This document shows positions 3,901-51,572 of a DNA stretch of 64,000 nt, piece after piece. The position numbers and the translations under genes are program-made. The number at the start of each line of letters is the position of its first letter. The stretch's first letter is position 1. The notes beneath the pieces were generated by a model. The model saw only the letters and a list, made by a program, of their open reading frames with translations, did not search any database and was not told the origin of the DNA. The DNA comes from Eutreptiella sp. 'Long Island Sound 2002' (taxonomy: Eukaryota > Euglenozoa > Euglenophyceae > Eutreptiales > Eutreptiaceae): contig OZ038384.1 of assembly GCA_964036045.1 (NCBI GenBank), positions 25,411,000-25,474,999 of the forward strand. The letters are read 5' to 3'.

Positions 3901-5278
3901 CACGGAGGATCTTCTCCATGGCCTCTTTCCTCTCGCCCCTCAGGGCAAACTCCCGGTGCCGATACACACGGGGGTCCTGCTTCAGTCGTATCTTGGCCTC
4001 GCCATACGGTCCACGCACCGGTGGGGGAAACACAGGCTTACCGCTGAAGAAGGTATCACCATACTTCTGCTTCAGCCTGGCCCTCAATGCCTGGATCTTG
4101 GGGCAGTCATCGGACTCCGCCTTGGTTTTTCCGGGCACTTGAACCACGGAGCTTACTTGAGGGGTAGCGACCCCGCTCGGTTTCGGCTCAGGTGGTCTTC
4201 CCAGGTGGCCCAAAGGGCCATCTCTGGTCTTGCCTCGGAACAGATCGCCGTAGGTGGGTGGGTTACCGCCAGGCGGCTCGTCTTGGCTGGACATGTGATC
4301 CAGCACCCTCTGTACGAAGGTATTCCCGTCATAGGAACCGCAGACGATTGAGTCCACTTCCCACCAGGCTTTGTCCTGGCCTTTGCCCTCACGCTGGTTT
4401 CCCCAGTCGTGAAAGGGCTGATCCATATACCCCTGAACCAGATCCCACTCCTCTTCAGTGAGGGGGTCTTCCAAATCCGATTCTTCGATGTCAACAGGGG
4501 GAACCGCAAAGCATTGCCGCCAGGGCTCTGCTATGATGCGGTTGACACACACGAAGTCCGTGGCGTCGGCCTGATCAAGGCCCCCATCCACATAGTGGAA
4601 TTCTGTTGGCCATCTCTTGGGTGGCATGGGCTGTCCCTTAGCGTCCTGATAGACACTCTCTCCAGCCGGTAGGACGACCTTGTTTAAGGTCATGTTGGTC
4701 AATGAGGCTACCCAATGTCGGGTACTTTCCTCCTCGGTGCATCCCATAGGAACAACCAGCACTGCCTTGGAGCGGTCCTTGCGAATCTTCGCTATCGCTC
4801 TTGGAATGTCCCAACGGGGGCAATGGATCCACATCAATCCCTGATGCGGACCCCAGTGCTTCTTCCACGCGGAGTCCTGTGCGCTCCAGTACTTCTCACA
4901 CAGCCGAAGATGGGCGGAGGTTCCTGAAGAGAACGCATCCTGGGCCAAGACTGGCCCCCAAGGCAACAGCAGCGACGACAACAGCCCTGAGATCAGCTCC
5001 AGGAGCTCCTGCGGTGACGACGACGATCCCAGCAGAGGTCTTGAGGAATTCTGGACCCTGCAGCAGCTTGACAAGTGGCGTGGACTTCTATGATGGTTGA
5101 TCCTTGAAGCGACGACAGCATGCTGCGCGGAAGGCGCTGCTCGTCCACCAGTAACCAAATCAGGCGCGTTAATTCGTCGCCTTGGGTTGGTTGACCCTCC
5201 GGGAGGTCCCTTCCTAAATAGGCGTGGGGCGCCTTGGGTAGGAAATGACCCTAAATCCCCCAAATCAGGTGCGTTCAT
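908..5278 (-). CDS. pol: Ty3/gypsy chromovirus Pol (RT, RNase H, integrase, chromodomain), Ty3-A
   Basis: This is an uninterrupted 1456-residue frame that stops with TGA. It holds the enzymes that copy and integrate an LTR retrotransposon. In order: reverse transcriptase (about residues 410-640, catalytic Asp in VIDLKHGYHQ near 529 and FVDDVI near 591); RNase H (about 740-860, with TDASDYA and CTDHQS); an HHCC integrase zinc finger (about 1010-1055, HHHMLHPG then CSVCQAC); the integrase core (Asp in MDVFSMPE, Asp in ICSDRGPQF, Glu in NGRAEVAGRQ); and a C-terminal chromodomain (about 1379-1435, FKVRWRGYGPSHDTWEP). Similarity to the Ty3-N copy starts only near 4945 (AFSSGTSAHL). The first ~110 codons come from unrelated sequence and a tandem array, so gag, protease and the true start are missing. 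The enzymatic part appears intact. Family assignment is secure; activity is unknown. Confidence 0.93.
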   Translation of the reverse strand: MNAPDLGDLGSFPTQGAPRLFRKGPPGGSTNPRRRINAPDLVTGGRAAPSAQHAVVASRINHHRSPRHLSSCCRVQNSSRPLLGSSSSPQELLELISGLLSSLLLPWGPVLAQDAFSSGTSAHLRLCEKYWSAQDSAWKKHWGPHQGLMWIHCPRWDIPRAIAKIRKDRSKAVLVVPMGCTEEESTRHWVASLTNMTLNKVVLPAGESVYQDAKGQPMPPKRWPTEFHYVDGGLDQADATDFVCVNRIIAEPWRQCFAVPPVDIEESDLEDPLTEEEWDLVQGYMDQPFHDWGNQREGKGQDKAWWEVDSIVCGSYDGNTFVQRVLDHMSSQDEPPGGNPPTYGDLFRGKTRDGPLGHLGRPPEPKPSGVATPQVSSVVQVPGKTKAESDDCPKIQALRARLKQKYGDTFFSGKPVFPPPVRGPYGEAKIRLKQDPRVYRHREFALRGERKEAMEKILRDFIQRGWLEPCHSEWASLCFVVPKKVAGEWRLVVDYRGLNAQTQHDSYTLPLIEDMLQKQHRRRIFTVIDLKHGYHQMPLAEESRACTAMSTPLGPLQWKVMPMGVTNGNAAFQRMLENLLEPVRDCADPFVDDVIIASGDPSMSYEELLEAHERDVTRVLDLLVRHKLTGSSDKATIAVSDVVFAGHVVGNGQRKPIPGKVAAIVHWEKPKTVSELRAYLGFCNYYSGYIKMYAEYAAPMTTMLKGNREETKKGSKKALVWTAESDRAFEGMKQALLSAVGLHLVDPDRGFVLRTDASDYAIGAVLEQVLDDGRHVPVAFWSRVLAEGQRRTWTPREKEAYAIVMALRKWAGYIALHPVTVCTDHQSLQSWHKEHVDTPSGPASRRARWHETLAKFDLTVVYIPGKDNIVADCLSRWAYPASKGMQDISAHGDEAETAEAKRIIEMERLMEEEGAKCFVVMAANAPLASRVSRAPRVLAPDGAESDKHLFPESCLQDDWTDDYAKSEAFAAEYRAVTDPDDGQKWPKGLTEEDGKLYRNGKLLVPESRLLQLCEAWHHHMLHPGVKKQALDMQRRFEIDHIVLYTAIKKVRKGCSVCQACNPDNRNVKGEPQWTPVPDQPMESVAMDVFSMPEVHIGKETFDCVVLCVDRHSGYVVAVPARKKGLLAKEVAVMMIRHWLTVFDIPRTICSDRGPQFTGGWFKAMCSLMGIRHAKSVAYLSRSNGRAEVAGRQLFEKLRKIHITNPRRNWFEEMWPALKAHHDTPTPGGLSPHQILFGRNPLGRGLPLSGDGMAMDAKEFFARQEQTARDIRQQLEKEHAERQKSAPSSTAQKFRVGDPVWVIRPRPMGTHRTKTWFTPGEVVRRIGEDTYRIKVGHGQFRERHESQLRVREPDLRGQHVSLSYAPHEADSDDDYAEQDDYTVEKILAQRPKASAPGGLEFKVRWRGYGPSHDTWEPVSSFVPRVNTPFMEYIRKHKTKIHVSDLAALTRAIAARGA

Positions 5279-5393
5279 TCGTCACCTTGGGTTGGGAATC
5301 GACCCTAAAAGGCACGAGAAATTCGTCGCCTTGGGCAGGAAATGGCCCTAAATTCAGGCGCGAGGAAGTCGTTGCCTTGGGTTTGACCCTAAA
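5157..5393 (+). repeat. Imperfect tandem array, about five units of 42-62 bp
   Basis: The unit is roughly AAATCAGGCGCGTT, then ATTCGTCGCCTTGGGT, then GACCCTAAA. Copies start near 5157, 5219, 5263, 5310 and 5352 and differ by substitutions and indels. The first codons of the open Ty3-A frame fall in this array, which explains its repeated NAPDL peptide. The array probably belongs to the sequence at the broken 5' side of Ty3-A rather than to a gene. Confidence 0.6.
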
Positions 5394-5743
5394 TAATTTT
5401 TTCCGAATTTATTGAATTATTGATTTCCATGCCCATGGAGAAAAAGGGCCAATATGTGCGCCTAAGCGCCATCAGTCAGGGCGGAAGGCCCTGCAGCGCC
5501 CCTGGTTTGGTCACCAGAGGCTACGAGGAGTGCCAGGGACCAGTGTGGTCGCCTGGGGGGCAATTGCCCTATGAATATTTCAAGATCAAAAAAAAAATTT
5601 TTTTTTACATGTGTGTGGCATGTAAATTACTCACGAAGCCCCCCCCCCCCACTGTCCTGCTGAGTCAGAGTTGAAACCAGGGCACTGCAGGGGTCAGAGC
5701 GCCTCCTTGGCCTTGCCTTCCTTTGGATATAGGCAAGGCTTCT

Positions 5744-6623
5744 AAGGAGGGGGGTGAAGCGGTATGGGGTGCTTCACCCATACCCGCTGCCCAGCCTGTG
5801 GCGCTCTTCGCCAGGCCAGATCAGGAATTTTCCTGTTGATGCTACGGCATCCTGATTTCTGTGGGATTTCTGTAAAATACCCCAGAAATCGTCATTTTAC
5901 GTCTTTTTGGGCTGGCGACGACAGTCGTCGCCTGCGCGACGCAGCTCCAGATCGAAGTTTTACTCTTCGATTTCTAAAGATTTTAGGCAATTTTATTATT
6001 GTTTTATCGTTTTTAGAACTAAAAGATTATAGCGTGACCCTTTTTGCGGCGTTCCGCGAAGGTCCATTTTTGCGAAAAGTGGCACGTTCACGCATTTTTC
6101 AAAAAATGCTGAGGCGATTCCAGGAATCGCCCAGACGCCCATGGCGTAGCCCAACAGTGGGGCTTTTCATATGTAGGTTGAATTGGTACAGAAACCCCTC
6201 GTGTCGGCTACGCGACGCGTTGGGGGGAGACGCGTGAAATGAGTGTTTTTGGCTCAAAAATCACTTTATTTCAATGTTTTTCGCCCAAAAACCACTGTTT
6301 GGCCCAGTTTGGGCAGGATCTCAGTGGAGATCCTGATGGCGACGCCTCGTAGCCGTCAGATTTTCTGATGGCGGCGACGCCGCCGCCTTCATTTCGCCCC
6401 TTTTTCTAAGCTATTTTATAGTTTAGAGATGATACATATACATTGTACATGTCAACGCATTTATTTTGTTACATATACCATCTCTTTGTTCATAGACGCC
6501 AGATTGTGTCCGCGGACGCTCCCCGTGGGGTGAGCAAGGATTCCAAGACCATTTACGCAACTCCAATGGAATCGAAGTTTGGAATAGACTTCATGTAGTA
6601 CTTGGAGAGGTTGGGGTGATGGG
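5744..6623 (+). repeat. Polypurine tract and probable LTR start of an unidentified Ty3-like element
   Basis: AAGGAGGGGGG (5744-5754) is followed at once by TGAAGCGG. The same eleven-base tract precedes the Ty3-N 3' LTR, which begins TGAAGCGC, and a similar tract precedes the Ty3-O 3' LTR, which begins TGAAGCCG. I infer a plus-strand LTR beginning at 5755. Sequence after the first eight bases differs from both LTRs, so this would be a third family. I could not find the far end, a second copy or a target-site duplication. The rest of the stretch is AT-richer with no recognisable gene. Confidence 0.35.
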
Positions 6624-34028: not shown

Positions 34029-34325
34029 AGAGCAAACCCTGGGGGGGGCTCGATAACACCCAGGCATGGCAGCGGGTACCCAGGACCATCCCCTGAAGGG
34101 GGGGGGTGTCACATCCTCATTTCAGGCTGATTCGTAGGTTAGGCTGCCCAATTCCCACAGCAAGACAGGTACGGTGCTGTAGCTGTTAGTAACTGCAAGT
34201 ATTTTTGAATGTTCTTAACCGCATCAACTTGTTCTGGGGCTGACGTCCCCCAATGAAAGTATTTACATCAACATATAAGGATATGTACACGGCTGCTCTG
34301 ATGGTTAGGTTAGATGAACGCTGAT

Positions 34326-35548
34326 TTACCCTGTGGGGAAGGGGGGGGGTTCCGGAAGGGGCGGGGGGCTGAAGGGGTCGAGAGGAGGAGACAGAAGTTC
34401 GCTGGATGGGCGGAAAAAATTCCGGATGTCCGGGGAGGCGTTGGAGTGGGGGGGGGCAGGGGCAGACGGGCCTGGGCACCTAGTAAGGGTGGGCCTTGAG
34501 GGGAGAGGTAGGCGTGTTTGACGGTAGCGTGCCTTGGAGCTTGGGGGTGGGAGGGGGAGAGCGGTCTTGGCGCGCTTTGGGAGCGCCCAAACGATTGTGG
34601 CCTGATGGGTGTGTGGTGATCGATGGCGTTTGTGTGGTGGCCGTGGGCGTGAGTGCTGAGGAGGGCGGGGAATGGCCGAGAGGGGGGGGGGGCGTGGTGC
34701 GGATGCGCGGCTGAACGGGCGTTTGGAATTTTTGGGCGCGCGGCGCGTGGTTGGTTGTGCTTTGGCTGACGCTGGCTTGGACGGTTTTTTTAAGGCGTGT
34801 TTAGGGAGAGGTGGGGGGTGCTGGTATACGGGGCGGGTCCGAGAGGGCATGTGGACGGAGGTATTGAACGCACCGTGCGAAACTGAGAAGGGGTTGAGAG
34901 GGTCGGAGGGGTGCGCCCAAAGTATTCGGTCCCAAGGGAGAGGATTCGAACACAGCCAATCATGTGCTTGGTGGACAGCCTTGTCCAGGTGCTTTACGCG
35001 TTCCTCCAGGGCTAGGCCAAGCATGGCTCTGTGCTCGGCGCGGCTGGAGCCCGGGATCGGCTTGGAGAGGCAGGACCATAGGGACTTAGGTACCAGAGTT
35101 CTCATGAAATTCCTGCGGTCAGCCTTTGTGGGTCCAGAGAGCCACCAGTGCAGGACAATGGGGCTGAAAAGGGTTCCCCAGGAGGAGACGTATGCCTGGA
35201 CGTGCTGGTCCAACGCTTTGCAGAAGACAGGCATGATACAGGGTCGAAAGGATGGTGCTGTCCGCACCTGGAACAGTGGTAGTCGTGGAGCATATTGCTC
35301 CACTGGTGCCCGTGCACATTGTAGCACCCGGACGCCAGCTTGAAAAACAGGGATGAAAACCAGGAAGTTTTGTTGTACAGGCTGAAGCTGGGGCCGACCG
35401 CTATGTTGCAATGGGAATGCCGCGGCAATAGGTGGCGGAATTGCTGTACCTTAAACTTGTGGAGGACAGGCAGGTGGTGTACCGCCACTGAGCCCAGTGG
35501 GGGGGGGGGAGGAGGTCCGGGGTAAAAATCAGGCTGTGAGCTGCCCAT
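34326..35548 (-). CDS. LINE-AlkB ORF2 C-terminal segment with Cys/His motif (two frames)
   Basis: In the frame from 35548, LHDYHCSRCGQHHPFDPVSC is a CxxC...C motif like the zinc-binding part found in LINE ORF2 tails. Near 35230 the likely frame changes to PVFCKALDQHVQAYVSSW and LFSPIVLHWWLSGP, which continues through a Leu/Ala helix (EHRAMLGLALEERVKHLDKA) and a long Pro/Arg/Ser-rich tail to a TGA-type end near 34326. Function is inferred from position only. Confidence 0.5.
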
Positions 35549-36564
35549 TTAGAAAAATGGTCGCAGATTTCGTTGCCAATAAAATTGGCGTGACCTTTAA
35601 TCCACATGATGTGGAGGGGGTTGGTAATGAGAAGTAGGGCGCTGTGTAAGGCGACGGTCCATGTGTCGTCTTGGAACGGGCTGGGCCTACGGACTTGGCA
35701 TTTCTGGAGGGTGGACACCACCTGTTCGTTGTCAATCAACAAACATACTTCGTATTGGGAAAGTTCCCTGTGGATCCAGCGAATGGCTGCTACCGGCCCC
35801 CAGAACTCTGAACCCAGAGAAGAGGGATGCGGTGAGGATAGGCACAGGACTCTGGTTGTACCGTCGGGTAGAAAGGCCGTGATGGCGGCCGCATGGCCGG
35901 ACTCACCGGAGGAGCCATCAGAATATAGCCACACCCGCTGTAGGCCGGGGGTCGGCGGCCTGGTCAGTGCCTCCGCGGCATCGTGGCATCCCCACTCGTC
36001 GAGAGACTTCTTCTCTAGGTAGTGCTGTGCCTGCAGAGCGAAGAGATGGCCGTGTTGGCTGATTCCCATTGCGTGTGCGTTGTGCGGTGGCGCTTGGGGT
36101 TCGGGGATGGTCGCTTGAGGGCGCAAAAAATCAGGGACTATCTGGAAGTGAGAGGGGCGGGAGTAATCCATGACGGCGTGGCATGGCATGTGCATGGTGT
36201 AGGACGTGTGGGTATCCACCGAGTAGACCCCGTCGTAGAACGAGACGTTGGCCCATTTGGAGGTGGCCTCGGTCACTCTTCCTGTGGCCTGTCCTGATTT
36301 GAACCTAATGGTTAGCTGGGTACCAGGCGTTAGATCCCGAATAGCAGTGGGTCTCCACGGGCCTATGCTGTGGAAAGATATGCCAAGGGCATGGATGGAG
36401 TCCATAAAAGAGTTTTGCACCGGGTCCGAGGCCCTCTGGTTCGACCTAAGTAAAGACTGGACGTACAGGGGGCCAACTGACTTTCGGGCAAGGCCGCAAA
36501 GGGCCCGTAGCCCATAGTTCACTGTGGCAACGTGGACGCTGTGCGGTAGCAACTTCATTCCCAA
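35401..36564 (-). CDS. LINE-AlkB ORF2: post-RT region and RNase H
   Basis: About 220 residues of unassigned post-RT sequence precede an RNase H: Asp in VWLYSDGSSGESG, Glu in LGSEFWGPVAAIR, Asp in VCLLIDNEQVV and the last Asp in GHANFIGNEICDHFSKW. All four metal ligands are present. The frame ends at TAG (35401-35403), but the conserved continuation is in another frame entered at the G-run near 35498. Confidence 0.78.
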   Translation of the reverse strand: MGMKLLPHSVHVATVNYGLRALCGLARKSVGPLYVQSLLRSNQRASDPVQNSFMDSIHALGISFHSIGPWRPTAIRDLTPGTQLTIRFKSGQATGRVTEATSKWANVSFYDGVYSVDTHTSYTMHMPCHAVMDYSRPSHFQIVPDFLRPQATIPEPQAPPHNAHAMGISQHGHLFALQAQHYLEKKSLDEWGCHDAAEALTRPPTPGLQRVWLYSDGSSGESGHAAAITAFLPDGTTRVLCLSSPHPSSLGSEFWGPVAAIRWIHRELSQYEVCLLIDNEQVVSTLQKCQVRRPSPFQDDTWTVALHSALLLITNPLHIMWIKGHANFIGNEICDHFSKWAAHSLIFTPDLLPPPHWAQWRYTTCLSSTSLRYSNSATYCRGIPIAT

Positions 36565-36605
36565 CCCTCCCTTTGGGCGAGCCGCGAAACGGTCTTCCGG
36601 GGAGA

Positions 36606-37161
36606 CTAGACGTGTGATGCTGCGAGACGCAACTCCCGCCCAGATAAGTGCCTGAAGCTTTTCGAGCTGGTTGGGGGAAGAGAGTGGGTGATTAAGCGGT
36701 AGGCGAGTGCTGGGACCAGCTGAGAGTTCGTCAGCCGGACCTTCTCACTAAGTGTAAGAGGCAAGAGAGAGAGCCGGGCAAAATAACTCTGGATCTCCGC
36801 CTTGAGCATGTGAAACAGGCCCTTTGCCTGGTGGCAAGTAAAAAGATAAACCCCCAGGTATTTATAGCATGTGTGCGGGCGACCCGTTTTTTTGTTGTAC
36901 GTGTGGAACTCAGAGCCCCTGGGTGTCAGAAACTCTTTTTGGGGGGCTGTGCCACTGGCGTCCCCAGTCCCTGGCTGGCCCATCGAAGTAGTTGAGGCTG
37001 TTTTGGACGTAGTTGACGTCCTCACTTCTGATCAGGATGTCGTCGATGTAGGCGTGGTGGCTAGTGCGGGCATTTGCCCGGGGGGGGGGGGCACAGTGGC
37101 AAAAAAATGGTGGAAGAGGGAGTTGAGATAGAGAATGAAGAGTAGGGGGGAGAGGGGACAT
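36606..37161 (-). CDS. LINE-AlkB ORF2: RT catalytic loop and thumb (two frames)
   Basis: SHHAYIDDILIRSEDV (37060-37020) supplies the RT Y-x-DD motif missing from the upstream frame. After another frame change near 36930, NKKTGRPHTCYKYLGVYLF and the helix LFHMLKAEIQSYFARLSLL form the thumb. The G-run next to the first break makes an assembly or sequencing length error possible. Confidence 0.7.
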
Positions 37162-39696
37162 CCTTGTCGGAGGCCCCTGGTTTGGAGGTATGCGTGGGGA
37201 GTGCGGCCATTGATGATGGGGCTGTCTTGAGGGAAGGAGTATATATGCTTTATGAGAGAAATTGTGGAAGCAGAAAAGTTTGCCCGTTCGAGGACGGTCC
37301 AGAGTGTGCCATGAGGCACTGAATTAAAGGCTTTATTTAAATCGATGAACAGCGAGTAGCTTTTCTTCGACTTTGCATAAAGGGCTTTGAGGTGATACAG
37401 ATGATCAGCGCATTGGTGGCCGGGAAGGCCACGGTGCTGGATTTCTGAAAGGATGTCGTGTGCAAAAGGCTGAGCGCGCAGGTGTTTGCAGGCAAAAGTG
37501 GCCAAGAGTTTGTAAATACAGTTTAAGAGGGCAATAGGACGGTAGTTTGAAGGGGAGAAAGGGTCGCCTTTTTTATAAAGCAAACATATTTTTGCGCATA
37601 GCCAGTGCGGCGGCAGCGGCGAGTGGAGGAAGCGGTTTAAAATGGAGTGAAAAAAACGTTGAATGGGTTCCGGACAGAGGGCCAGGATGTAGTTGTTTGT
37701 TTTGTCCGGCCCCCCGGCTTTTGATGGCTTACTGTGCTTTAAGTGGTTCTGGAACTCCTGCCAAGTCACAGGAGGTATGTGGTCGTTCTTGGCAGAAACA
37801 GGGCATGTGGGAGAGTGGGACAGGACCTCGTCGACGAAGTCCTGGGGGGGGGCGTAATCTGGATGCCCTCCAAGATGAAGCAGGGTGTCCCCAAAAACTT
37901 TAGCTACATCCGCCGGGTCACTCAGGAGCTCTTTGGTGGCTGGATCTCTGACTACGAGAGGCTCTAGGTCTTTAGGGCAGAGGGTGCGAGCAACAGTGGT
38001 TTTCATTTGGACCCCTCGGACCAGACTACTGTGAAGCTTTCTCTTCGCTTTGGTTTCGTCCGAGGACCGTAGGGTGTTTACCACGGACTGAACTTCCGCA
38101 ATGTGCTCGGGAAATGCTGGGGAAGAAGGAGGCGGGGGTGAGCGTAATAATTTCCTGAGCTTGCCGTAGCCCTCTTGGTCCTTGCGCTGCGGCTTCGGAC
38201 GCGTGATTTTGTGGTACGCAGACCCAACCTGCATAAGGAGAGAGTCAGTGGCGGCGATGACCTCTTCCAATGGGGCCCTGGCAGGGGCGTCCTGGAGGTC
38301 CCGGCACCAGTCGGAGATGAGCCGTATGCTGTTGGAGAATTGTTGCTTCTCGTCACTAGAAAGCTTCCGAAAAATGCAAGGGGGGAGTGGGGGCTGAGAC
38401 AGAAGGATCGGGGAGGGGCACTGGAAGACCGCAACCACTGGGTGGTGGTCGAAGATGGTGTAGTCCGTGAGGACCGACGCATCCAGAAGGGGAAAGTGCG
38501 ACACTAGGCGAGGGGACGCAAAGATGTAATCCAGCCTTGCTTCGCTGTCCCAGCGGTCGCTTGCGTAGCGGGTGTAGTGCCTGAGGGAGGGGTGCTCTGA
38601 CCTGAAAGTGTCCACCAACCTAGCTGGGAGGTATTCCATCTCCCCCGTGAGCCAGTGCCACTCATGTAGATCGACCAAGCTGTGCTGGTCAAGTTCGGGA
38701 TCCAGAACGCAGTTAAAATCACCCCCCAGGATGTGATTGGGATGGTCGTTGAAATAATAAGCAAGGACTCGCTGTATGGTGTCGCGGTACGGAGCTCGGG
38801 CCCCCGTGCGCACCGGGGGGGAGTAAACTGAGAAGACGTGTAAGGGAGTTGCCTCCGGTAGGGATATTTTGGCACCACAGATAAGGCCGTCGCTGTCTCT
38901 GGGCGGGACACAGCTGGTATATCTCGCGATGCGCGGGCCTGCAATGACTGACACCCCGTGTCTGTGGCCGCAGACATTTGAGAAGACCTTAACGCGGTCA
39001 TTGCCGAAGGCGTACCGCTGTGGGAGGAGAGGGGGAGAGTTGAGCTCCTGGAGGAGTATAATGTCATATCCCTCGTTTAGGAAATGCAAGATTGCCGCGG
39101 GTGTGTTCTGGCTCTTTGCCGTGTTGAAGGACACGACACGGATGGCCGGGACGGAGGGAAGAGAAGGGGGGGGGGCGGCGCAAGCGTTTAGGTCTGAAGG
39201 GCTTGTGCACTTGGGGGGGAGGGGGGAAGGAGGGTGTCCGAATGGAGGAATAGCGGGCACCCAGTGGGGAGTCCGGTGTCAGAAGCGTTGGTATGTGGGC
39301 GGGGTCCTCATTCTGTATTGAGGGGTCGGGTTCGCACTGTTCTAGTGCAGAAATCCGAGAGTGAAGTGCTTGTGCGTATGCTTTGGGCGGGTGGCGTAAG
39401 GCCGTGTCACAGGCAGTGCGAAGAGAGGGGTGTATAGCCAGGTCTGTGGCGACACTTGTGTCTGGGACCAATATTCTCGGATTGATGTGTGCTTGATCCA
39501 CAGGGAGAATCTCCGCGATGCGAGAGACGGTGGCGGTGAGGGAGGCACCGTGCACGCCCACGCGGGCGAGGACCTCTTGACACCGTCTCATGTTACTACT
39601 ACTGCGGTGGCACTGACGGGCGGGAGGGGGGCAGAAAGAATATGGGGAGGGGTAGCATTCGGTAGACTCATCAGAGCTTCCCACAAGGGGGACCAC
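37032..39696 (-). CDS. LINE-AlkB ORF2: APE endonuclease and reverse transcriptase (with frameshift)
   Basis: An N-terminal linker (39696-39064) runs in one frame and the enzymatic part (39260-37032) in another; they join near 39150-39230 beside C-rich runs. Endonuclease: VVSFNTAKSQN, DIILLQELNSP (catalytic Glu), VFSVYSPP, LGGDFNCVLDPELDQ, RLDYIFASP and FDHHPVVAVF. RT: AKICLLYKKGDPFSPSNYRP, SLFIDLNKAFNSV (catalytic Asp in FID), GLRQGCPLSPLLFILYLN. The frame is lost just before the catalytic YIDD at a run of G's near 37085. It prints element RNA into a nicked target site. Confidence 0.88.
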
Positions 39697-39932
39697 AGGA
39701 TTTTGTGGTCTGGTACACAGTGAGCACAGATCAGCCCGGTCAGGGCATACCTGGCGGTCACAGGGGTTAAGGAATTCATGTTACGTACAGGGGGAGTGGT
39801 AGAGCGATGGCCTTGCCATGCCTGAGAACATGCAATAATGGTGATGGAGGGTATGTGGGGTCTTAAAGCGAAGACCACGTCTCGTGTGCACAGAAGGGTG
39901 GCGCCGGGTGTAGGATCCTTAATTCGTCTCAT
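39588..39932 (-). CDS. LINE-AlkB ORF2, N-terminal piece
   Basis: ATG at 39932 lies 14 bases before the end of the ORF1 stop codon, in another frame, so ORF2 may be translated by reinitiation. The 114-residue piece (RRIKDPTPGATLLCTRDVV; YALTGLICAHCVPDHKILW) has no known domain. The frame appears to shift near 39650-39690 into the endonuclease-RT frame. Confidence 0.45.
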   Translation of the reverse strand: MRRIKDPTPGATLLCTRDVVFALRPHIPSITIIACSQAWQGHRSTTPPVRNMNSLTPVTARYALTGLICAHCVPDHKILWSPLWEALMSLPNATPPHILSAPLPPVSATAVVVT

Positions 39933-42900
39933 GTTGCTCTGGGTCCGGGGGCTCTGAGGATGTCGTATGGAGGCCCGTTCCTACACCAGTGTGACGGAAG
40001 ACAAGGGATACCCTGGAGTCTCGGGAAATGCGCCGCTTCTCCACTGTGTCATAGTCGCGAGCTGGGATTTGGTGCTTCCATTTGTCGCGGGCTTCCCCAG
40101 AAAGTAGGAGGAGGCTGCGGCGCTGGAGGAAGACTTTTTGCCTTTTCTTAAAGAGGGTGGATCCGGGGAGGGGACGCGGTTCGAAAACCATTTCCGCACC
40201 TGACCCAAAGGAACCATCCAGGACATAAGGGCCTAGTTGAGGGACGTCTACGTGGCTCCTCAGGCCACTGCCAGGCTCGTATCGAGCCACTGACCACATA
40301 TTGGGGCATAAGAGAGAGGAGGGCAGGACCTGGGCGCAGGCACAGAATGCCCGTAGCCCAATCGCTTGAATAAACTCAGGAGGGGTCGGTTCAAAAGGTT
40401 CAACTTCTTTTGATTCTGGATTGTACCTGAATCCGAAATGAAGCATTGTGCGGTGCCCCTCATACAGCCACTGGTGATCCTCATCTGCACTGTAGGACAT
40501 CACTAGGGCTTCTTCTTCTTCCGGGATGGGGTCGAAAATTTTCCCCGTTTGGAGGTGGAGCTGTGCAATTTTTTCTGTGAGGGAGAGGGGCTTGCTTGTG
40601 GACAGGTAATGGTCCCTCGCGAGACTTAGTTGTTCCACGCTGCCGTAGGCAGTCGCCGCCTCGATGACTCGTGATAGGAAATCCTGGGCTTCCGAAACTA
40701 GGGGGTTGGCGGGAGCCAAAAGGTTGTCACGCGCGGCCGTGTCGGGGCATTCGGGGTGAAAGACGAGCTGGGACACAGTGAAGCCTTCTGCAAGGATTGC
40801 GGATTCGTAATGAGCGTATTTCACTCGGTAGACTCGCACCTTAGCCATGGGGGCGCTGAACAAGGAAATGTGCCGAACCTTCCCAAGCAGGGAGACCCCG
40901 AACATTACATCAACGTCCGGCGTGGATGACGGGGCGTGTACTTCTACCAGTTCTGGGTCAGGAGGTTCGGGGAGGGGGTTGAAGCAAGCCTTCACCGGGG
41001 AGGGTGGGGGAGGGGCATCCCTGTGCACATTTGGAGGGGAGGCGGAGAGGTCCACTTTGTGTCCCGGGTGTTTAGAGCGCCAAGAGGAGTATCCTCCCCA
41101 AGAGATCATGGCTCCCGTAGTGCGCCGATACGTGACCAAGTTATTCTCTTGGAAGAGCATGTAACTCATGGAAGTGAGGGAGTCTCTTTGGGGGAGCAAG
41201 GGGGTGTTGTGATAGTTCATGCACACGTTAAACTCGTGTTGTGTTCTGGGAATGGCCCCTAGGATGCCGCACCGCCGCGCGGCTTCGCTAGTAAGGAGGG
41301 ACTTCCACACGTCAATTTGTTTGAAGTCCGGCGTGGCCTGTTTGTATGCTTTTGAAGGTACAACTTTGAAAGTTTTGTCCTTCCCTAGGTCGGAACCACG
41401 GATGCAAAAGACCTTGCCGAGCGTCCACAAAGGGTGTTGCAAGATGGTGGAGAGAAGCTTCTCGGCGAGGGGGGTTGGAAAGGTGTAATCGAAGCGGAAC
41501 ATATGTTCGGATGATGATTGTAGAGGCTGTATGCGTTCCTCCGGAAAGAAAGCATTTTTGGAGTTGACCGAGATGTGGTCGTTTTCGAAATGGAAAAGGC
41601 GGTTGATGAGGACAAAAAAATCCCGGGCGTTGCCAGGGCGCCGCCTATACTCTCCTCGTTCCCGCTTGGATTTTTTGGAAAGCTCTTTTGGAGAAGAAAC
41701 GGTGAAGTTCGGGAGCAAATGCCGTGCAACTTCGAATCGTAGCGTTGTGCGCACCGCGGCCACTTGGACGGTGCCGTCTACCTTATTTATGGCCCATTGT
41801 AGGGAGGTGTGAGGGTGCATGATGTCGCGGTAGCGGATGTGTGCGTGGTGCTTGTGACGGGTGGAGAGGTGAAGGTGAAAATATGGGTATTGAGAAGAGT
41901 CAAGCAAGTTGAGCCGCACCGAGCCATCGGGACTAGGCGACGGGTTGTACGTATTGGCATCCGAAAGTCGGTCTACTCCACATACCCAAGGGGCAAGGGA
42001 GATCATGCCGGGATTCAAGGGGTTCATGTAGAGGGTCTCCGCCGAAAGGTTGTCTTCCATTCCCGGGAGAATGAAGAAGCCTTCGTACACAACACCGGAA
42101 TCAAAGGCTTCTTGCAAGGCTTCGTTGATGGCATGGGCCCACTCGGTCCATGTGTTGCCGTATTTGTACTTGGAGTTGTAGTAATCTTGTGGGTGTGGAA
42201 AAATGTAGAATTTTGGGTGGTGATGAAGGATGTCTTTGAGGTACCTAAAATTATCATGTCCAATTGTGGAGTAGGCATTGTTGCCAGAGCAATCAATGTC
42301 ATGGAAAAAGGTGCACCCGTCGCTCGCGCAAAGGTCTATTGTTGGGTGTACTTGATCATAGATCGCTTGCTTGTGGTGTTTCTCTAACACGAGTTGATTT
42401 GTATCAACTCCTAAGGTGTCTTGGACATGCGTTTCTCCCCATAGTGCTTGTTGATCGTGTGTGTTGATCTCACCTTTATGTTTAACCAAGAATTTTGCAA
42501 AGGCACCATCCGGGGCAAGGGAAGGGTTGAAGAAGGGTTTTCCAGAATTACCATCCGTTTCATCAGGAGTAGGGTCTTCCCCGTCTTTGGCCTTTTCGTG
42601 TGTCCCTTCGGGAGACGGAATAGCGCTTGGCGTAGATTGCTCCTCACGCGGCGTTAAGAGAGAGTTGTCGGGCTCAACCTCATTGGTTTTCTTTGCGTTG
42701 TCGTTGAGAGCGGCGTTGTTGTTCATTGCCGAATCTCCACACGGGTCTTCGCGACTTTCTTCTTGTTGTTTCAACTCTTCGGCGTCACAAGGATGGCTTC
42801 CTTCGCTGTTCTCGTGCGTGCCTTCGGCTTTGTTGTTCATTGCCGAAACTCCACACAGGTCTTCGCGAACTTCTTCTTGTTGTTTCAATTCTTCGGCGTC

Positions 42901-43332
42901 ACATGGATGGCTTCCTTCGGTGTTCTCGTGCGTGCCTTCGGGCACGGAGTCTTGCACCTTCTCGGAGTTGGTTGGCGGAGCGGGCGCTTGGACTTGATGT
43001 TGTGGTTCTTGGGCTCCTTTTCCTTTGGCGGTGTGAGCCGTTGTCTCGGCGAGTGGGAAGAGTTCTTTTGCCACATCTTCGGGTTGTTCATCGTCTGAAA
43101 TGACATTAGATGACGTGCCTTCCTCATGTGACGGAGAAAGGTCGAGTGAAGGGTGAAATGGGTCGTTCTCGCGCTTGGCGGGCGCAAACGTGGGGAGAAG
43201 CCGACTTTGAGTCAGTTTGGCGTCCACTCTAGCCTGAGTTCGAGCAATGAAACCTTTCACGGACTTTAGCTGTTTGCTTTCCGTCCTGTCCTTTGCGGAA
43301 CGTTCCTTGAGCCCAACTTGCGACATTGCCAA
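39919..43332 (-). CDS. LINE-AlkB ORF1 with C-terminal AlkB-type Fe(II)/2-oxoglutarate dioxygenase domain
   Basis: 1137 residues, uninterrupted. The N-terminal third is hydrophilic, with 38-residue tandem repeats (EGTHENTEGSHPCDAEELKQ and a second copy). The middle (about 300-880) looks folded but matches nothing I know. The C-terminal ~180 residues are AlkB-like: RTMLHFGFRYNPES, NMWSVARYEPGSGLRSHVD (iron ligands H1027 and D1029), SFGSGAEMVFE, LLLLSGEARDKWKHQIP (third ligand H1087) and RVSLVFR (2-oxoglutarate pair R1107 and R1113). Every expected catalytic residue is present. AlkB proteins oxidatively remove alkyl groups from nucleic acids; some plant RNA viruses carry such domains. A role in protecting or demethylating element RNA or cDNA is inference. 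The stop overlaps the next ORF's ATG. Confidence 0.88.
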   Translation of the reverse strand: MAMSQVGLKERSAKDRTESKQLKSVKGFIARTQARVDAKLTQSRLLPTFAPAKRENDPFHPSLDLSPSHEEGTSSNVISDDEQPEDVAKELFPLAETTAHTAKGKGAQEPQHQVQAPAPPTNSEKVQDSVPEGTHENTEGSHPCDAEELKQQEEVREDLCGVSAMNNKAEGTHENSEGSHPCDAEELKQQEESREDPCGDSAMNNNAALNDNAKKTNEVEPDNSLLTPREEQSTPSAIPSPEGTHEKAKDGEDPTPDETDGNSGKPFFNPSLAPDGAFAKFLVKHKGEINTHDQQALWGETHVQDTLGVDTNQLVLEKHHKQAIYDQVHPTIDLCASDGCTFFHDIDCSGNNAYSTIGHDNFRYLKDILHHHPKFYIFPHPQDYYNSKYKYGNTWTEWAHAINEALQEAFDSGVVYEGFFILPGMEDNLSAETLYMNPLNPGMISLAPWVCGVDRLSDANTYNPSPSPDGSVRLNLLDSSQYPYFHLHLSTRHKHHAHIRYRDIMHPHTSLQWAINKVDGTVQVAAVRTTLRFEVARHLLPNFTVSSPKELSKKSKRERGEYRRRPGNARDFFVLINRLFHFENDHISVNSKNAFFPEERIQPLQSSSEHMFRFDYTFPTPLAEKLLSTILQHPLWTLGKVFCIRGSDLGKDKTFKVVPSKAYKQATPDFKQIDVWKSLLTSEAARRCGILGAIPRTQHEFNVCMNYHNTPLLPQRDSLTSMSYMLFQENNLVTYRRTTGAMISWGGYSSWRSKHPGHKVDLSASPPNVHRDAPPPPSPVKACFNPLPEPPDPELVEVHAPSSTPDVDVMFGVSLLGKVRHISLFSAPMAKVRVYRVKYAHYESAILAEGFTVSQLVFHPECPDTAARDNLLAPANPLVSEAQDFLSRVIEAATAYGSVEQLSLARDHYLSTSKPLSLTEKIAQLHLQTGKIFDPIPEEEEALVMSYSADEDHQWLYEGHRTMLHFGFRYNPESKEVEPFEPTPPEFIQAIGLRAFCACAQVLPSSLLCPNMWSVARYEPGSGLRSHVDVPQLGPYVLDGSFGSGAEMVFEPRPLPGSTLFKKRQKVFLQRRSLLLLSGEARDKWKHQIPARDYDTVEKRRISRDSRVSLVFRHTGVGTGLHTTSSEPPDPEQHETN

Positions 43333-43619
43333 GAAAACGGCGTTGCGAAGCTAGGCAAAGGACGGCGCTCACGATTGCGGTTTTGCGCTAGGCAAATAAA
43401 ATTGACGGCAAGGTTGTTGCGCTTGCCTCGGCTCCAAATTGCGGCTATGGGACCTTTGATGGTAATCCACGGCTTCACGGGATCAGCCCAGAACTTGAAC
43501 AGCCCGGGATTTTTGTTAATCACCGAGCAGCCTGGACTGCTGGTGGATCCATCAATAAGTTTCTGAGGGTCAATCGAAAAAAAATAGACACTCAGAAAGT
43601 GTTTAGTAACTGCAAGTAT

Positions 43620-44919: not shown

Positions 44920-45264
44920 TCAGGCGCCCCTGGCTGCAATCGCCCGGGTGAGTGCTGCCAAGTCCGAGACATGGATCTTGGTCTTGTGCTTGTGGATGTA
45001 CTCCATGAAGGGGGTATTAATCCGCGGCACGAACGAGGAGACGGGTTCCCAGGTGTCGTGGGACGGCCCATAGCCTCGCCAACGAACCTTGAACTCCAGG
45101 CCTCCGGGTGCCGAGGCGTTCGGACGCTGAGCCAGGATCTTCTCGGCGGTATAATCGTCCTGCTCAGCATAGTCGTCGTCCGAATCAGCCTCATGTGCGG
45201 CATAGTCCAGGCACACATGTTGGCCACGGAGGTCGGGTTCCCGCACACGGAGTTGAGCTCTCGT
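44920..45264 (-). pseudogene. Ty3-N Pol remnant: chromodomain end
   Basis: The end of Pol is retained: YTAEKILAQRPNAS, FKVRWRGYGPSHDTWEP and the C-terminus ALTRAIAARGA, nearly identical to Ty3-A. Upstream, at about 45264, the sequence jumps into an inverted segment. The part equal to Ty3-A about 1242-4100 (RT, RNase H, integrase) is absent. Confidence 0.85.
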
Positions 45265-46729
45265 GGCTTTCGTCACCTGAGCACCATGTGGAATGCCAAT
45301 GGATCCACCCCGAACGCAATCAGCCCGAAGTAGCCGCGCTGGGCACTGAGCCAACTGGGCCAGCAAACCAGGAGTACGGCGTAATGCCGGAAGTGGCGAG
45401 CCGAGTGGTTGCAGACCTGGGAGCTTCGGATCGGGCCCTGGATGCGTTCTCTTCAGGAACCTCCGCCCATCTTCGGGTTTGTGAGAAGTACTGGAGCGCA
45501 CAGGACTCCGCGTGGAAGAAGCACTGGGGTCCGCATCAGGGCTTGATGTGGATCCATTGCCCCTGATGGGACATTCCAAGGGCGGTGGCGAAGATACGCG
45601 AGGACCGCTCCAAGGCAGTGCTGGTTGTTCCCATGGGATGCACCGAGGAGGAAAGTACCCGACATTGGGTCCTCTCATTGACCAACATGACCTTAAACAA
45701 GGTCGTCCTACCAGCTGGAGAGAGTGTCTATCAGGACGCTAAGGGACAGCCCATGCCACCCCAGAGATGGCCGGCAGAATTCCACTATGTGGATGGGGGC
45801 CTTGATCAGGCCGACACCACAGACTTTGTGTGTGTCAACCGCATCGTGGCGGAGCCCTGGCGGCAATGCTTTGCGGTTTCCCCTGTTGACATCGGAGAAG
45901 CGGAAGACCCCCTCACTGAAGAGGAGTTGGATCTCGTTCAGGGGTATATGGATCAGCCCTTTCATCACTGGGGAAGCCAGCGTGAGGGCAAAGGCCAGGA
46001 CAAAGCCTGGTGGGAAGTGGACTCGGTCGTCTCTGGTTCCTATGATGGGGATACCTTCGTAAGGAGGGTACTGGACCACATGTCCAGCCAGGACGAGCCA
46101 ATCGGCGGTAACCCACCCACCTACGGCGATCTGTTCCGAGGCAAGACCAAAGATTAACTGAGCCGCCCAGACCTCGGCAAGGAAATCCTCCTGCAAGGTC
46201 GCTTCTACGAGGCCGAGATATACTGGGACATGATCGTTGGGTACGACTTCATGATGGAGATGGACTCCGGCATCCTCCCGGCCCAGGCCTCGATGACCCT
46301 GTACCAGGACGACCAGCTCTCTGGCTTTCGTCACCTGAGCACCATGTGGAATGCCAATGGATCCACCCGGAACGCAATCAGCTCGAAGTAGCCGCGCTCG
46401 GCACTGAGCCAACTGGGCCAGGAAACCAGGAGTACGGCGTAATGCCGGAAGTGGCGAGCCGAGTGGTTGCGGACCTGGGAGCTTTGGATCTGGTCCTGGA
46501 TGTGTTCTCTTCAGGAACCTCCGCCCATCTTCGGGTTTGTGAGAAGTACTGGAGCGCACAGGACTCCGCGTGGAAGAAGCACTGGGGTCCTCATCAGGGC
46601 TTGATGTGGATCCATTGCCCCCGATGGGACATTCAAAGGGCGGTGGCGAAGATACGCAAGGACCGCTCCAAGGCAGTGCTGGTTGTTCCCATGGGATGCA
46701 CCGAGGAGGAAAGTACCCGACATTGGGTG
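45265..46729 (+). pseudogene. Inverted, internally duplicated segment of Ty3-N (protease end and early pol)
   Basis: This segment codes on the plus strand inside a minus-strand element. 45265-46155 holds the pol linker (FRHLSTMWNANGS; EKYWSAQDSAWKKHWGPH; GNPPTYGDLFRGKT). 46158-46729 holds the protease end (YWDMIVGYDFMMEMDSG) and then the first 406 bp of the same linker again. 45265-45670 and 46323-46728 are therefore direct repeats. The right junction is inside the protease (NHREL). Inversion plus template switching would explain it. Confidence 0.8.
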
Positions 46730-47345
46730 GTCTCAGCTCACGGTGGTTCACGAACTGCAGCCCAATGGCCGCTTCCTTCGTGCCTCCCACCATGTACTGG
46801 CCGTTCGCCACCTTCAGCCTGACAGCACTCCGACTGTCGATCAGACACTCTGGCGGAAGTAGGCCAGCCTTGACCAAGCTGACCTGAGCGCCCGTGTCTA
46901 CCAACACGTCGAAGACCTTCTCCACTTCCCCGCATAAGGCACGGACCTTAAGATGCAACTGCCGCTCACGCCCCACTCGGCGCACGGCGTGCAAGCTCAG
47001 GATCTCCGGCCGTTCCAGAAGCTCAGGAAGCGACTGGTGCAGGTCGTGGACAATGGGCTCAGGCTGCCCATCTGCAGCATCCAGCTGCGGTCCGGGTGAT
47101 CCTCTGATACTCTCGGATAGATCTTGAAGTACATCAAACACATTCTTGTTCGCGAAGGATGGAAGGGTGCAAGGGTTCGTGCCTTCACTTGCTCTCACCC
47201 CGCCACCGCGACTGGGTGCCGGACCGGGCCTTCCGCCCGCGGCAGTCCCTTTGTGCTTACTGACTCCCGACTGGGATGGTGTGGCGCTTCCCACGACACC
47301 ATCCTGCGACCGCCCTAGCTGGGGCCCTTGGCTGCAGGGGCTCCG
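46730..47345 (-). CDS. Ty3-N protease, N-terminal half (truncated by rearrangement)
   Basis: In phase with gag and directly after its TAG. VLVDTGAQVSLVKAG holds the active-site Asp, and LKVANGQYMVGGTKEAAIG is the flap. The protein breaks off at FVNHREL, where the inverted segment starts. Its homologous C-terminal half lies at 46158-46320 on the opposite strand. Confidence 0.8.
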
Positions 47346-50300
47346 CTAGGGGGCGTCAGTTGTGGAAGTAGAGGTATTTTCCTCCGCATTAACCTCGTTG
47401 ACACCCTTCCTCCTTCCCCTATTCCTAGGCTTCTTGTCCTTGTCCTTGTTCTTGTCTTTCTCGTTGTTCTCCTTGTTCTTGTCGTCCGACCTGGGGACCC
47501 AGTTCCTCTTGATCTCCTGGATCTCCTTGGCCAATTCGGTCCCCACCGACATCAGCTTGCAGCGCTCGTCCTTGTCGACCTCCACTTTGGCCTCCCGGAT
47601 ACCCGCAGGTGCACGCTTCTTCGACCCGTGCGCCTTCTTGTAGGCCTCTGTATCAGCCTGGTGGATGGGGCATGTTCGGTGGTCATCGTTGAAGCCTTGC
47701 TTCCTCCCATAACACACGAAACAGCCCTGAGGGTGAGCTCGTATGAACTCCCCAAAGGACAGCGGAGGGTTGCCAATGCGACGAGGGTCCCTCTTCTCCT
47801 TCTTCTTCCAACCCGGCTGCAGGGGCTTCCAGCTTCCCCGGTTGCTCCCCGCGTTCAGGTTGTTGGCCACGAAGGCACAAACGGCCATCTCGGCGGGCTC
47901 ATCGTCGTCGTCATCGTCGTCGAGAGCCTCACCGCCATCGGTTCCCGCTGGGTCCATGCCAGCTTCCCCGCCAGGCCCCTCGCCAACGTAGTTGACGTCG
48001 CGGTCGCCGGGCCTCAACCCGCGGGTGTGGTGGAGGTTCTGGTACTCCTTGAGCACCTCCTCTCCAACCCACTCCAGGATCTCGTCGCAGCTCAACAACG
48101 CCGGGATGGCCTGCAGACGGATGGTCTGGCCGCTCACGTCACACTCGTCAAGGCGCCACATCGCGGTTTTCTCGCGGTCGCCCTAGACGGTGATGAGGAG
48201 AGCATTCCGCAGGGAGTGCCGTTTGACATCCCGGGCCACGTTCTTCTTCGTCCAAGCCACCACGTTCGTATGATACTCTTTGGGGAGCATCATCTTGACG
48301 GTGTGGTTGGACTTGGCCCTCTTGGCTTCCTCCTTGGTGACGCTCTTGATCCATGCTTCCAGCAGCATGGAGAGCAGGCGAGCCTGCTCGTCACCCTCGT
48401 TCCAGTCCTCCACGTTGCGGCGGAAGAGGGTGTATTGCCCTTGGAAGTCTCGCCAGTCCCGTAGGCGGATCTCCCGTCCATCATGCTGAAGCTTGATGGA
48501 CTTCCACCGTTTGGCAGCCACCTGGGGAGCGTCCACCCTCTCCTGCTCGTTGAGCCACTTCTTGGCTTCCTTGAGGGTCTTGATTTTCCCCTCCTTGGTC
48601 GCAACGAAGTATAGCTCTTGGAGCACTTCCGGCAGGCGGTACCTGAACCGTCTGAAGACATACTTCTCCGCATCTGCGGGATCCATGTCCTAAGTGACGG
48701 TCACCCCCCAATCGTCCAGCTTCTCCAAGAAGCGGTCGAGGTTGAGGGGGTTGCCATCGTACATGGGGGGCTTGATGTCCTTCAGGTCTTCCCACACGGC
48801 GGCATCCGCGGCCTTAAAGACCATGAACGCCGGCCGCGAGGTCGACCGAGGTTCCCATCGGCCTCTCCCACGGACTCCCACGGCTGCCACTTCCATCTCC
48901 TCCCCGGTATCCGTGTGGCCACGCCGTGGTTCCTCCATGTACGCTGAACCTAGATGTTCACGCCGTACCCCTTCCATGTACGCCTCCTCATCACGGCGCC
49001 GACGGCTGCGTTCAGCGGCCTCCCGTCGTACACCACACGGCGGGGAAATGTCGAACTCCTCCAGGTCCAGGTCCAGGTCCTCACCTCCGCCGACATCCCA
49101 CTCCACGTCTCCTCTGGGGACCTCATCCCTGAGTCCACCATAACGTCCACCAGCCATTGGGATTGGCACCAAGGCTGGTGCGGGGCGTCGGGGGCGTACC
49201 GGTGTCCGCGGTGGAGCACGGCGGTTGTGGTACTCCGCGCTGAGCCACTCATCACGCCAATCCTCACTGCCACTGCCGGGCGGCACGCGCTTGTTGCGGC
49301 GGCCCGCGCTGTGGTGAGAGGGGGCGCTGAGAGAGCGGGTACTGGCGCTGGGGCGACTCCTGGGGGCTCCGCCGGGGGCGTGGGGTCTGCCCGGACCTGG
49401 TCCGGGTCCCCAGCCGTCGTCCGACGAGCCAGACTCCAGGGGTGGGTGGTCGCTGCTGACGCTCCCACGGCCTTCCAGCGCGTCCAGCCTCTGCTGCAGG
49501 CCGCTGATGACCTTGTTCAGCGACCTGGTCTCGCCCCTGGCGATGTCCAGCAGCTTCTGGGTGGCAGTGGTGACCTTGGCGCTCTTGACCATCTCGATCT
49601 TGGCAATTTCCAGCTCCCTCTGTGCGCGCGCGGCGACCCTGGCGATGCGAGTCATCTCGCCCTTGCCCGTGTCTACCTCGCGCTCGAGGGACTGGACCCT
49701 CCTGCGGAGGTAGACAATCCACCGCCAGGTGGTATCCGGGTCGCCGTTCCCTGGTGGGTCGTCGGGGTCTCCAGGGGGTCCTCCAGGAGGGCCTCCGCCG
49801 GGTCCGCCCGGTCCAGGGGGTCCTCCCCCGCCCGGTGGTCCGCCTCCAGGGGGTCCACTTGGTGGGCGTCCTCCAGGGGGTCCTGATGGTCCTCCGCCAG
49901 GGGGTCCCGGTGGGTCCGAGGATGGGGGCTTCTTCGAGTAGTCGAAGTCCATGTCATCATCCTCGTCCATGTCGCCCCACCTGGGCGTCTCGGTCTCGGA
50001 AGACTCCGAGCTTCGGTAGGGAGGAGGGGGATCCTCATCCTCACCTTTCGGCTCCATGGAGACGTCTCCGCCTCCTCCGCCAGCCACTCCTTGGCGATGT
50101 CGGCGGCCTCGTTCATCCCCGTCGCTGGCGGTGAAGAAGGGGTCGCTGTCGTTGGGGTGTCCGCCCGCTGGCCTCCGTGACCTCTCGGGGGTCTTCCCCT
50201 TACCCTTCCTCCGTCGGTAGGCAGTGGGGCCACTGCTCCCACTGCTGCCCGTGTCCACCTCCTCTGGATCCAGCGCCATCTTGGAGGAGGCGTCCCCTTC

Positions 50301-51572
50301 GAAAAGCTTTCGAAGGGTCTCCACTCGGGATCCTCCCGGTGGAGTCTCGCGGCGGAGCTTGGCCTCCGCCTCCGCCATTGCGGCGGCCGTGGCTGCGGCA
50401 GCTCGCCTTTCGGCCTGCTCCCGGGCACGAGCCGCCTCGGCTTCCCGGGCCTGCTGCAGCCGAGCCTTCTCCGCTTCTAACGCCGCCAGCTCTGCCTCCG
50501 TCTTGGCCCTCTCCTCAGCGACCTTCCGTCGCGCGGCCTCGATGGCGTCCTTCTTGGCGGCGTCCGCCTGGGCCTTAGCCGTTGCCTCGGCGTGGGCCCT
50601 TTCCTCCGCCTCCTTCTTTGCCCTCTCTTGGGCAAGCGCCTCTTCCAGCGCCTTCACCTCGGCCTCCTTGCAGGCAACGGCCTCCTGCGTCAGGCGGGCT
50701 TCCTCGGCGGCTGCTGCCACCTCACCCTTGACCTGGGCAGTCGCTGCCTCATGGGCGGCTGCGGCCGTGAGTCCGGCCGCAATGGCCGCCACGGTCGAGG
50801 CGTGGATGGCCATGCCATGCGCCCACTCCGCAGCCTCCTGCTGGGCGATGCCGACGGCGCCCTCCATGGCAGCGTTGTGCTGCGTGGCCCGTTGCCGGGC
50901 AACCTGAAGGTTGCAGGGCACCCCACAGGCGCGCTCACAGGCGCGCGCCACGTCCCTTTGGTCGGGAGCGACGCTGCTGCTGGAGCTGGCCTGGTCGGCC
51001 GGCATCCTCCCGCGGTGGGCCGACTCCACGTCGCTGCTGGGGCCTGACTTCCTCAGGAGCAGCGGACGGGGTTTGGCCTTGGCCTGCTTGGCGACTTCCA
51101 GGAAGTCGCCAAGGGTGGTGTGGCCGGGGTGGCGACCGCCATTGGCCCGTTGGGGGCTGTGGGCCCGGGTTCCGCCCCTGGCGCCTTGGGCGGCTTCGGC
51201 GGCCAGGGATTCCTGGTACTCCCGCCACTTCCTGTCCCGCCTCCTGTCCCCGGCAGAACGCTTCTCCTTCCCAGGAGACGCGCTGCTGCTGCTGCCCTGC
51301 AGCCTGCGCTCGTTCCCCAGCTCCGGAAACTCCTTCTCGATCATGTCCCACATGGAGACGTTGATCGAGGCGCCCGACGGGTACTCGTTGGGCTTCTCGT
51401 CCTCCTCAATCCCGTCGGGGCACAGCCCTTCGCCGGGCCTGTCTGGGCGGGTCCAGACCCTCCAGCGCTTGCGGCGGAAGCGGTACGCATACCCTTCCAC
51501 CCGCAGCCAATCCTCCACTGCCCGCAGGCGGTCCTCGCCCATGTCCTCACGGAGCTCGAAGCTCTCGGGCAT
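47346..51572 (-). CDS. gag: Ty3-N Gag, with in-frame TAGs at 48690 and 48183
   Basis: A very long Gag, about 1400 codons in one phase. Order: a small N-terminal domain with a Trp/Arg-rich segment (YAYRFRRKRWRVW); a long Ala/Glu coiled coil (about 50350-50900); Pro/Gly-rich repeats (about 49720-49930); a second coiled coil (EREVDTGKGEMTRIARV); a capsid-like core (IKPPMYDGNPLNLDRFLEKL through EDWNEGDEQARLLSMLLEAW), with TAG at 48692-48690 and 48185-48183; an acidic loop; the zinc knuckle CFVCYGRKQGFNDDHRTC (47723-47670); and a Lys-rich tail. It ends with TAG (47348-47346) followed by CGG, with the protease frame in phase. Core and knuckle align with Ty3-O Gag, though the N-terminal parts differ. 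Confidence 0.8.

Follow-up and report, generated by a model that had tools for sequence, protein, structure and literature searches.

The window analysed here, a 64,000-nucleotide stretch of the Eutreptiella sp. 'Long Island Sound 2002' assembly (contig OZ038384.1, positions 25,411,000–25,474,999), carries on its minus strand a 9.4-kb long interspersed nuclear element (LINE; 34203–43602) bounded by a 17-bp repeat. The first open reading frame (ORF1) of this element ends in an AlkB-type 2-oxoglutarate (2OG)/Fe(II) dioxygenase domain, a type of enzyme by which cells remove or alter methyl groups on RNA and DNA, and that this domain is a real part of the LINE's ORF1 is well supported. ORF1 runs uninterrupted from a TTG at 43332 to a stop at 39919; its first ATG, the third codon (43326), is the start (MSQVG...) used by other copies also. 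The companion ORF2 is broken, with endonuclease (EN) plus reverse transcriptase (RT) and RNase H occupying separate frames, and its N-terminal piece and EN region are continuous in the related copy L039. Classification as an apurinic/apyrimidinic endonuclease (APE)-type LINE is based on an APE-type endonuclease and an RT in ORF2 downstream of ORF1, found also in the open ORF2 of locus L041, and on target-site duplications (TSDs; 17 bp in the window, 18 bp at L040) together with dispersed copies, 41 of which were scored. The two element ends differ by eye, no dedicated search for long terminal repeats (LTRs) having been made.

An AlkB-type domain at the end of ORF1

The Pfam profile PF13532 (2OG-FeII_Oxy_2) matches ORF1 residues 966–1113 with E = 2.7e-11 and 44.5 bits against a cut-off of 31.2, and it also exceeds its cut-off in L041 and in the database protein P0001. 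By sequence, the best solved match of the domain in the Protein Data Bank (PDB) is ALKBH8 (5.2e-10), which is likewise the best for a second family (family B) of the same architecture. The original prediction, made from the letters of the window, had described a 1137-codon frame ending in an AlkB fold with H1027/D1029, H1087, R1107 and R1113, accompanied by a broken ORF2 and flanked by a 17-bp target duplication, and all of these points are borne out. Its description of the domain as intact has to be withdrawn: between residues 937 and 938 the window copy is missing 13 residues that are present in the other matches examined from its own family (family A), while the catalytic residues are retained. 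Extra residues at this site occur in 35 of 37 matches, the exceptions being the window's own locus and the family-B copy L044, whose alignment is gapped. Of the 37 matches, 34 retain the HxD...H metal triad together with the distal Arg pair.

Structural prediction of an undeleted copy, L012, revealed a confident AlkB fold with a complete double-stranded beta-helix, located behind a segment resembling an RNA-recognition motif (RRM). The residues deleted in the window correspond to residues 154–166 of this model and include the strand predicted to come first in the AlkB region (158–161). Among fold matches, ALKBH6 ranks above ALKBH8, and ALKBH2, ALKBH3 and AlkB, solved with DNA, also match, together with grapevine and cherry virus proteins that include polyprotein and methyltransferase/helicase entries. 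The RRM-like segment reaches a predicted local distance difference test score (pLDDT) of 54–74 in the AlphaFold2 model of the whole window ORF1 and ~64–77 in the L012 model. Alignment with ALKBH8 RRM/AlkB structures begins at model residue 5 or 3, with a root-mean-square deviation of 21.6 Å over both domains. ORF1 ends just behind AlkB; profile searches of ORF1 returned no methyltransferase match, and NCBIfam gave no match for ORF1 of L012 or L041. Because the full-length model of the window ORF1 is poor (mean pLDDT 33), no fold is claimed for residues 1–790. The N-terminal part of ORF1 contains a duplicated unit, EGTHEN.EGSHPCDAEELKQQEE... (42700–42960, minus strand), whose number varies between copies as judged by eye.

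Table 1. Features of the AlkB-bearing LINE, in window coordinates
Feature	Position	Strand	Evidence or remark
Target-site duplication, 5'-side copy	43603–43619		TTAGTAACTGCAAGTAT, exact 17-bp match
Target-site duplication, 3'-side copy	34186–34202		Element end ...AACATTCAAAA precedes the duplication
Element 5' terminus, CACTTTCTGAGTGTCTATTTTTTTTCGATTG...	43562–43601	-	Common to family B over ~41 alignment columns (L040 alignment)
ORF1, 1137 codons from TTG, 1135 from first ATG	39919–43332	-	Open frame; starts of other copies
RRM-like beta-alpha-beta-beta-alpha segment, ORF1 residues 793–862	40747–40956	-	AlphaFold2 models; ALKBH8 structure alignments
AlkB-type 2OG-Fe(II) dioxygenase domain, ~residues 931–1117	39982–40542	-	PF13532; HxD H1027/D1029, H1087, R1107, R1113
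13-residue deletion in the AlkB domain	After residue 937, ~40521	-	Comparison with other copies
ORF2 N-terminal piece	39064–39696	-	Open frame downstream of ORF1; no Pfam match
ORF2 piece with APE-type endonuclease and RT	37032–39260	-	PF03372, E = 3.4e-9; PF00078, E = 1e-22
ORF2 piece between RT and RNase H pieces	36606–37025	-	Open frame; no Pfam match
ORF2 piece with RNase H	35401–36564	-	PF00075, E = 1.1e-6

Copies in the genome, a second family and database relatives

A search of the genome with ORF1, in which the best 41 of 6184 candidates were scored and complete copies are favoured, showed that all 41 reach the ORF1 end (query residue 1137, in one case 1136). Whole ORF1 is spanned by 37 of them, 24 of these being stop-free, and an endonuclease lies within 1.5 kb downstream of the ORF1 AlkB in 29 of 30 fetched copies, the window's own counted. 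The exception, L037, has a second partial ORF1 with AlkB (4675–5937) directly behind the first, while an endonuclease is absent from the 1.5 kb examined; a nested or tandem insertion may be the cause. In addition, a PF13532 scan of the 2.28-Gb assembly yielded 151 matches from 150 scored candidates out of 1107. From these, 22 loci were read (L001–L008, L039–L044, L045–L052), picked by rank and variety rather than at random and excluding copies also present in the ORF1 search. Eight proved to be LINE ORF1 (L039–L044, L047, L050) and four belong to another multi-copy group (L048, L049, L051, L052); the remaining ten encode AlkB proteins of other kinds and are probably host genes, L007 among them being interrupted by stops.

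Family B shares ~24% identity with the window in ORF1 and 38% in EN/RT, as measured on L041, whose ORF1 of 916 codons carries AlkB at the same place (PF13532, 6.6e-14) and whose ORF2 is open over 1584 codons, bears PF03372, PF00078 and PF00075 and has sequence matches to human L1 ORF2p and R2-type RTs in the PDB. The order AlkB then EN was found in all six family-B loci read, with both frames open in one, L041; L040, L042 and L044 repeat its layout, though their frames are broken, and in L047 and L050 the EN lies behind AlkB. Among six long loci searched for TSDs, L040 has one of 18 bp, L044 only a 12-bp A-rich candidate and L041 none, and L039, L042 and L043 offered no 5' motif from which to start. 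Neither of the outcomes that the original prediction had named as refuting it was obtained, the AlkB profile match being significant and other copies carrying the domain. The possibility of a single chance fusion or of a chimeric assembly, which that prediction had raised, is accordingly rejected and retains practically no probability, since the same architecture, with AlkB in the same place, recurs in two families, at many loci and on different contigs, with TSDs on two elements.

The first ~41 nt are nearly identical in both families (L040:1071–1111 in the family-B copy) despite the low ORF1 identity, and this conserved 5' end may serve as a promoter or RNA signal. The motif was found in six of nine loci tested (L009, L012, L018, L040, L041 and L044; not L026, L039 or L043). 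At the 3' ends, families A and B show no similarity above shuffled sequences (score 27, with 31 as the highest among 50 shuffles). At ~30% identity, their AlkB domains have diverged about as far as the remainder of the proteins, consistent with the domain having descended together with the element. Among nine host-type AlkB proteins, the BLAST-closest to the window and L041 domains is L045, an ALKBH8-like protein (1e-33) that is probably a host gene, at ~23–33% AlkB identity to the LINE domains.

In a search of 5.8 billion proteins that registers only sequences sharing 5-residue words, 21 related proteins were found, all from ENA, 20 of which match family A and one (P0021) family B. The most distant family-A relative, P0019, is 52% identical over the full length. 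The HxD string is present in four of the 21 (P0001, P0002, P0012 and P0019).

Other elements and frames were recorded alongside the LINE. The third multi-copy AlkB group (L054:3280–4377, at G000:C12:6438500-6445500, the same place as L049; L048, L052 and L051) has a frame of 365 residues whose N-terminal part is rich in Ser and Glu and whose AlkB is ALKBH8-like (PF13532, 9.5e-13). In DNA, L048 and L052 are 92–97% identical, an identity that for L048 continues past the ORF; L051 reaches ~43% at the protein level. No obvious RT is visible by eye among the ORFs listed for the 7 kb around L054, and the group is possibly the ORF of another mobile element or a retrocopied gene. Near the LINE in the window (44920–51572, minus strand), a frame with a chromodomain-like end (44920–45678) and long gag-like frames (48183–51572) look by eye, with no profile search made, like a Ty3/Gypsy element. 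The assembly also contains a plastid-type rbcL whose best PDB match is 1gk8, from Chlamydomonas, which taken by itself makes a green-algal host probable. Besides one on contig C2205, long stop-free rbcL frames lie on large contigs (G000:C7:94068808-94069734, C2:24394161-24395087 and C2:94527090-94527986), representing nuclear plastid DNA insertions or assembly artefacts.

Comparison with known AlkB-bearing systems

As in L1-type and other two-ORF LINEs, ORF1 is followed by an APE endonuclease and RT, and the element is flanked by a TSD; it differs in having an AlkB domain in ORF1 and an RNase H in ORF2. Human ALKBH8 (3tht/3thp), the best PDB sequence match of both families, has an RRM followed by AlkB, an order that the RRM-like segment of ORF1, predicted at moderate confidence, would match. 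It carries a methyltransferase domain after AlkB and acts on tRNA wobble uridines, whereas the LINE ORF1 is without a methyltransferase profile, shows low identity and places ~790 residues before the RRM-like segment. Plant RNA viruses, like this LINE, are selfish RNA-copying elements with an AlkB domain of their own; the viral domain is part of large replication proteins, whereas that of the LINE belongs to ORF1. Literature on AlkB or other dioxygenases and retroelements yielded no AlkB-bearing LINE, in keeping with the original prediction, whose author was not aware of such domains as a standard part of LINEs, most subscription journals, preprints and Repbase lying outside the search.

AlkB domains are described in the plant virus families Alpha- and Betaflexiviridae and Closteroviridae, and an orchid (Phalaenopsis) Ty3/Gypsy lineage is described with an ALKBH5-like ORF whose protein binds RNA and demethylates N6-methyladenosine (m6A) in vitro (PMC9289625). 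The orchid elements and this LINE are alike in that a retrotransposon lineage gained AlkB and kept it with the cofactor residues (PMC9289625). The orchid element is of LTR type and has its AlkB as an ORF of its own, which groups within the ALKBH5 homologues (PMC9289625), whereas the LINE has an EN/RT backbone and two diverged families, and its AlkB forms the end of ORF1 and is nearest to ALKBH8 by sequence and to ALKBH6/8 by fold.

Selection and possible roles of the domain

Family B shows an AlkB ratio of nonsynonymous to synonymous substitution rates (dN/dS) of 0.24 (p = 5.8e-9; 42 synonymous and 25 nonsynonymous changes over 166 codons), obtained from five loci (all but L042) by counting changes against the commonest codon without modelling shared ancestry. 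The pairwise value over four copies is 0.17. Between the two subgroups of family A, dN/dS is 0.46 by pairs, and within the subgroup without the window it is 0.44. These ratios suggest purifying selection on AlkB that is clear in family B, modest in family A and relaxed in the window's subgroup.

We consider it somewhat more probable than the alternatives taken together that this is a two-ORF, APE-endonuclease LINE whose ORF1 protein (ORF1p) combines an RRM-like segment with AlkB, demethylates the element's own RNA and goes back to a single capture before the families split. ORF1p would coat the element RNA within a ribonucleoprotein and thereby bring the dioxygenase to that RNA, where methyl groups would be removed oxidatively. 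Demethylation could then relieve repression that depends on RNA methylation, or remove the methylated bases at which RT is blocked, and either effect would raise retrotransposition. The source of the domain would be an ALKBH8/ALKBH6-like cellular gene, acquired a single time before families A and B separated. AtALKBH9B is described as demethylating ONSEN RNA in stress granules and thereby freeing it (PMC12786077). More tentatively, and at slightly less than even probability, the lineage may be viewed as possessing an RNA-modifying RRM–AlkB module of its own, derived from the cell before the family split and selected since, which edits methylation of element RNA within the ribonucleoprotein and thereby lets this RNA evade repression or remain a readable template for target-primed reverse transcription.

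Several observations weigh against the favoured explanation. The substrate is not readable from the fold, the matches spanning RNA, DNA and tRNA enzymes, and the RRM-like segment of L012 and L041 lacks any Pfam match at E ≤ 10. A catalytic or Arg position is changed in L014 (the Asp of HxD) and in L020 and L017 (the last Arg). AlkB dN/dS is 0.82 within the window's subgroup, a relaxation expected of dead insertions, and the two family-A subgroups differ by only 10 majority-codon changes (dN/dS 0.28). The AlkB tree joins A and B weakly (77/49), and as to whether a further AlkB group, C, belongs with the LINE domains, A+B+C against the rest is neither shown nor rejected (p-AU 0.206). P0019 scores 28.0 bits with PF13532, below the cut-off, and the HxD string is absent from 17 of the 21 database proteins, two exact strings having been searched, so that a changed motif would be missed. 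These 17 end at scattered points of ORF1 and not at one domain border, as expected of broken or mispredicted copies; this is weak evidence against AlkB-less versions, and, no ORF2-centred survey having been made, an AlkB-less sister family may still exist. P0021, the sole family-B database match (110 member sequences), stops before AlkB; unless this protein is itself broken or mispredicted, it weighs against an invariable presence of the domain. Finally, m6A on human LINE-1 RNA is described as promoting retrotransposition (PMC12786077), so demethylation need not help the element.

Other roles were weighed against the same data. The domain might act on host tRNA or mRNA in the manner of ALKBH8, tuning translation or stress in the element's favour. 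ALKBH8 as the best solved sequence match of both families, the RRM-like segment in front of AlkB and the position of ALKBH8-like L045 as closest host-type protein are consistent with this role; set against it, ORF1 is without the methyltransferase domain that ALKBH8 carries, AlkB identity to L045 is low and ALKBH6 surpasses ALKBH8 by fold, and we regard action on host RNA as unlikely. Retention of AlkB purely as a catalytically dead, nucleic-acid-binding scaffold is quite unlikely: enzyme folds are known to be reused as binding-only modules, and three of the 37 matches have lost a catalytic or Arg residue, but the conservation of the triad and Arg pair in the other 34 extends to family B, at ~30% AlkB identity. 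Repair of alkylated bases in cDNA or target DNA during target-primed reverse transcription would agree with the fold matches to ALKBH2, ALKBH3 and AlkB, yet the sequence is closest to ALKBH8 rather than to the DNA-repair members, and the domain sits on ORF1 rather than on the EN/RT-bearing ORF2, and this role, too, is quite unlikely.

If demethylation of its own RNA by the LINE is correct, a non-LTR retrotransposon would itself edit RNA methylation. Reports on how RNA methylation affects mobility are not the same for plant LTR elements as for human LINE-1 (PMC12786077), and with this LINE the debated question of whether retrotransposons are held back or aided in their movement by methylation of their RNA could be tested in a natural system. 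It would also represent a third kind of RNA-copying element with an independent AlkB capture, after orchid Gypsy elements and plant RNA viruses, and captures by an LTR element, by viruses and by a LINE would together suggest that elements which copy RNA are generally hindered by base methylation.

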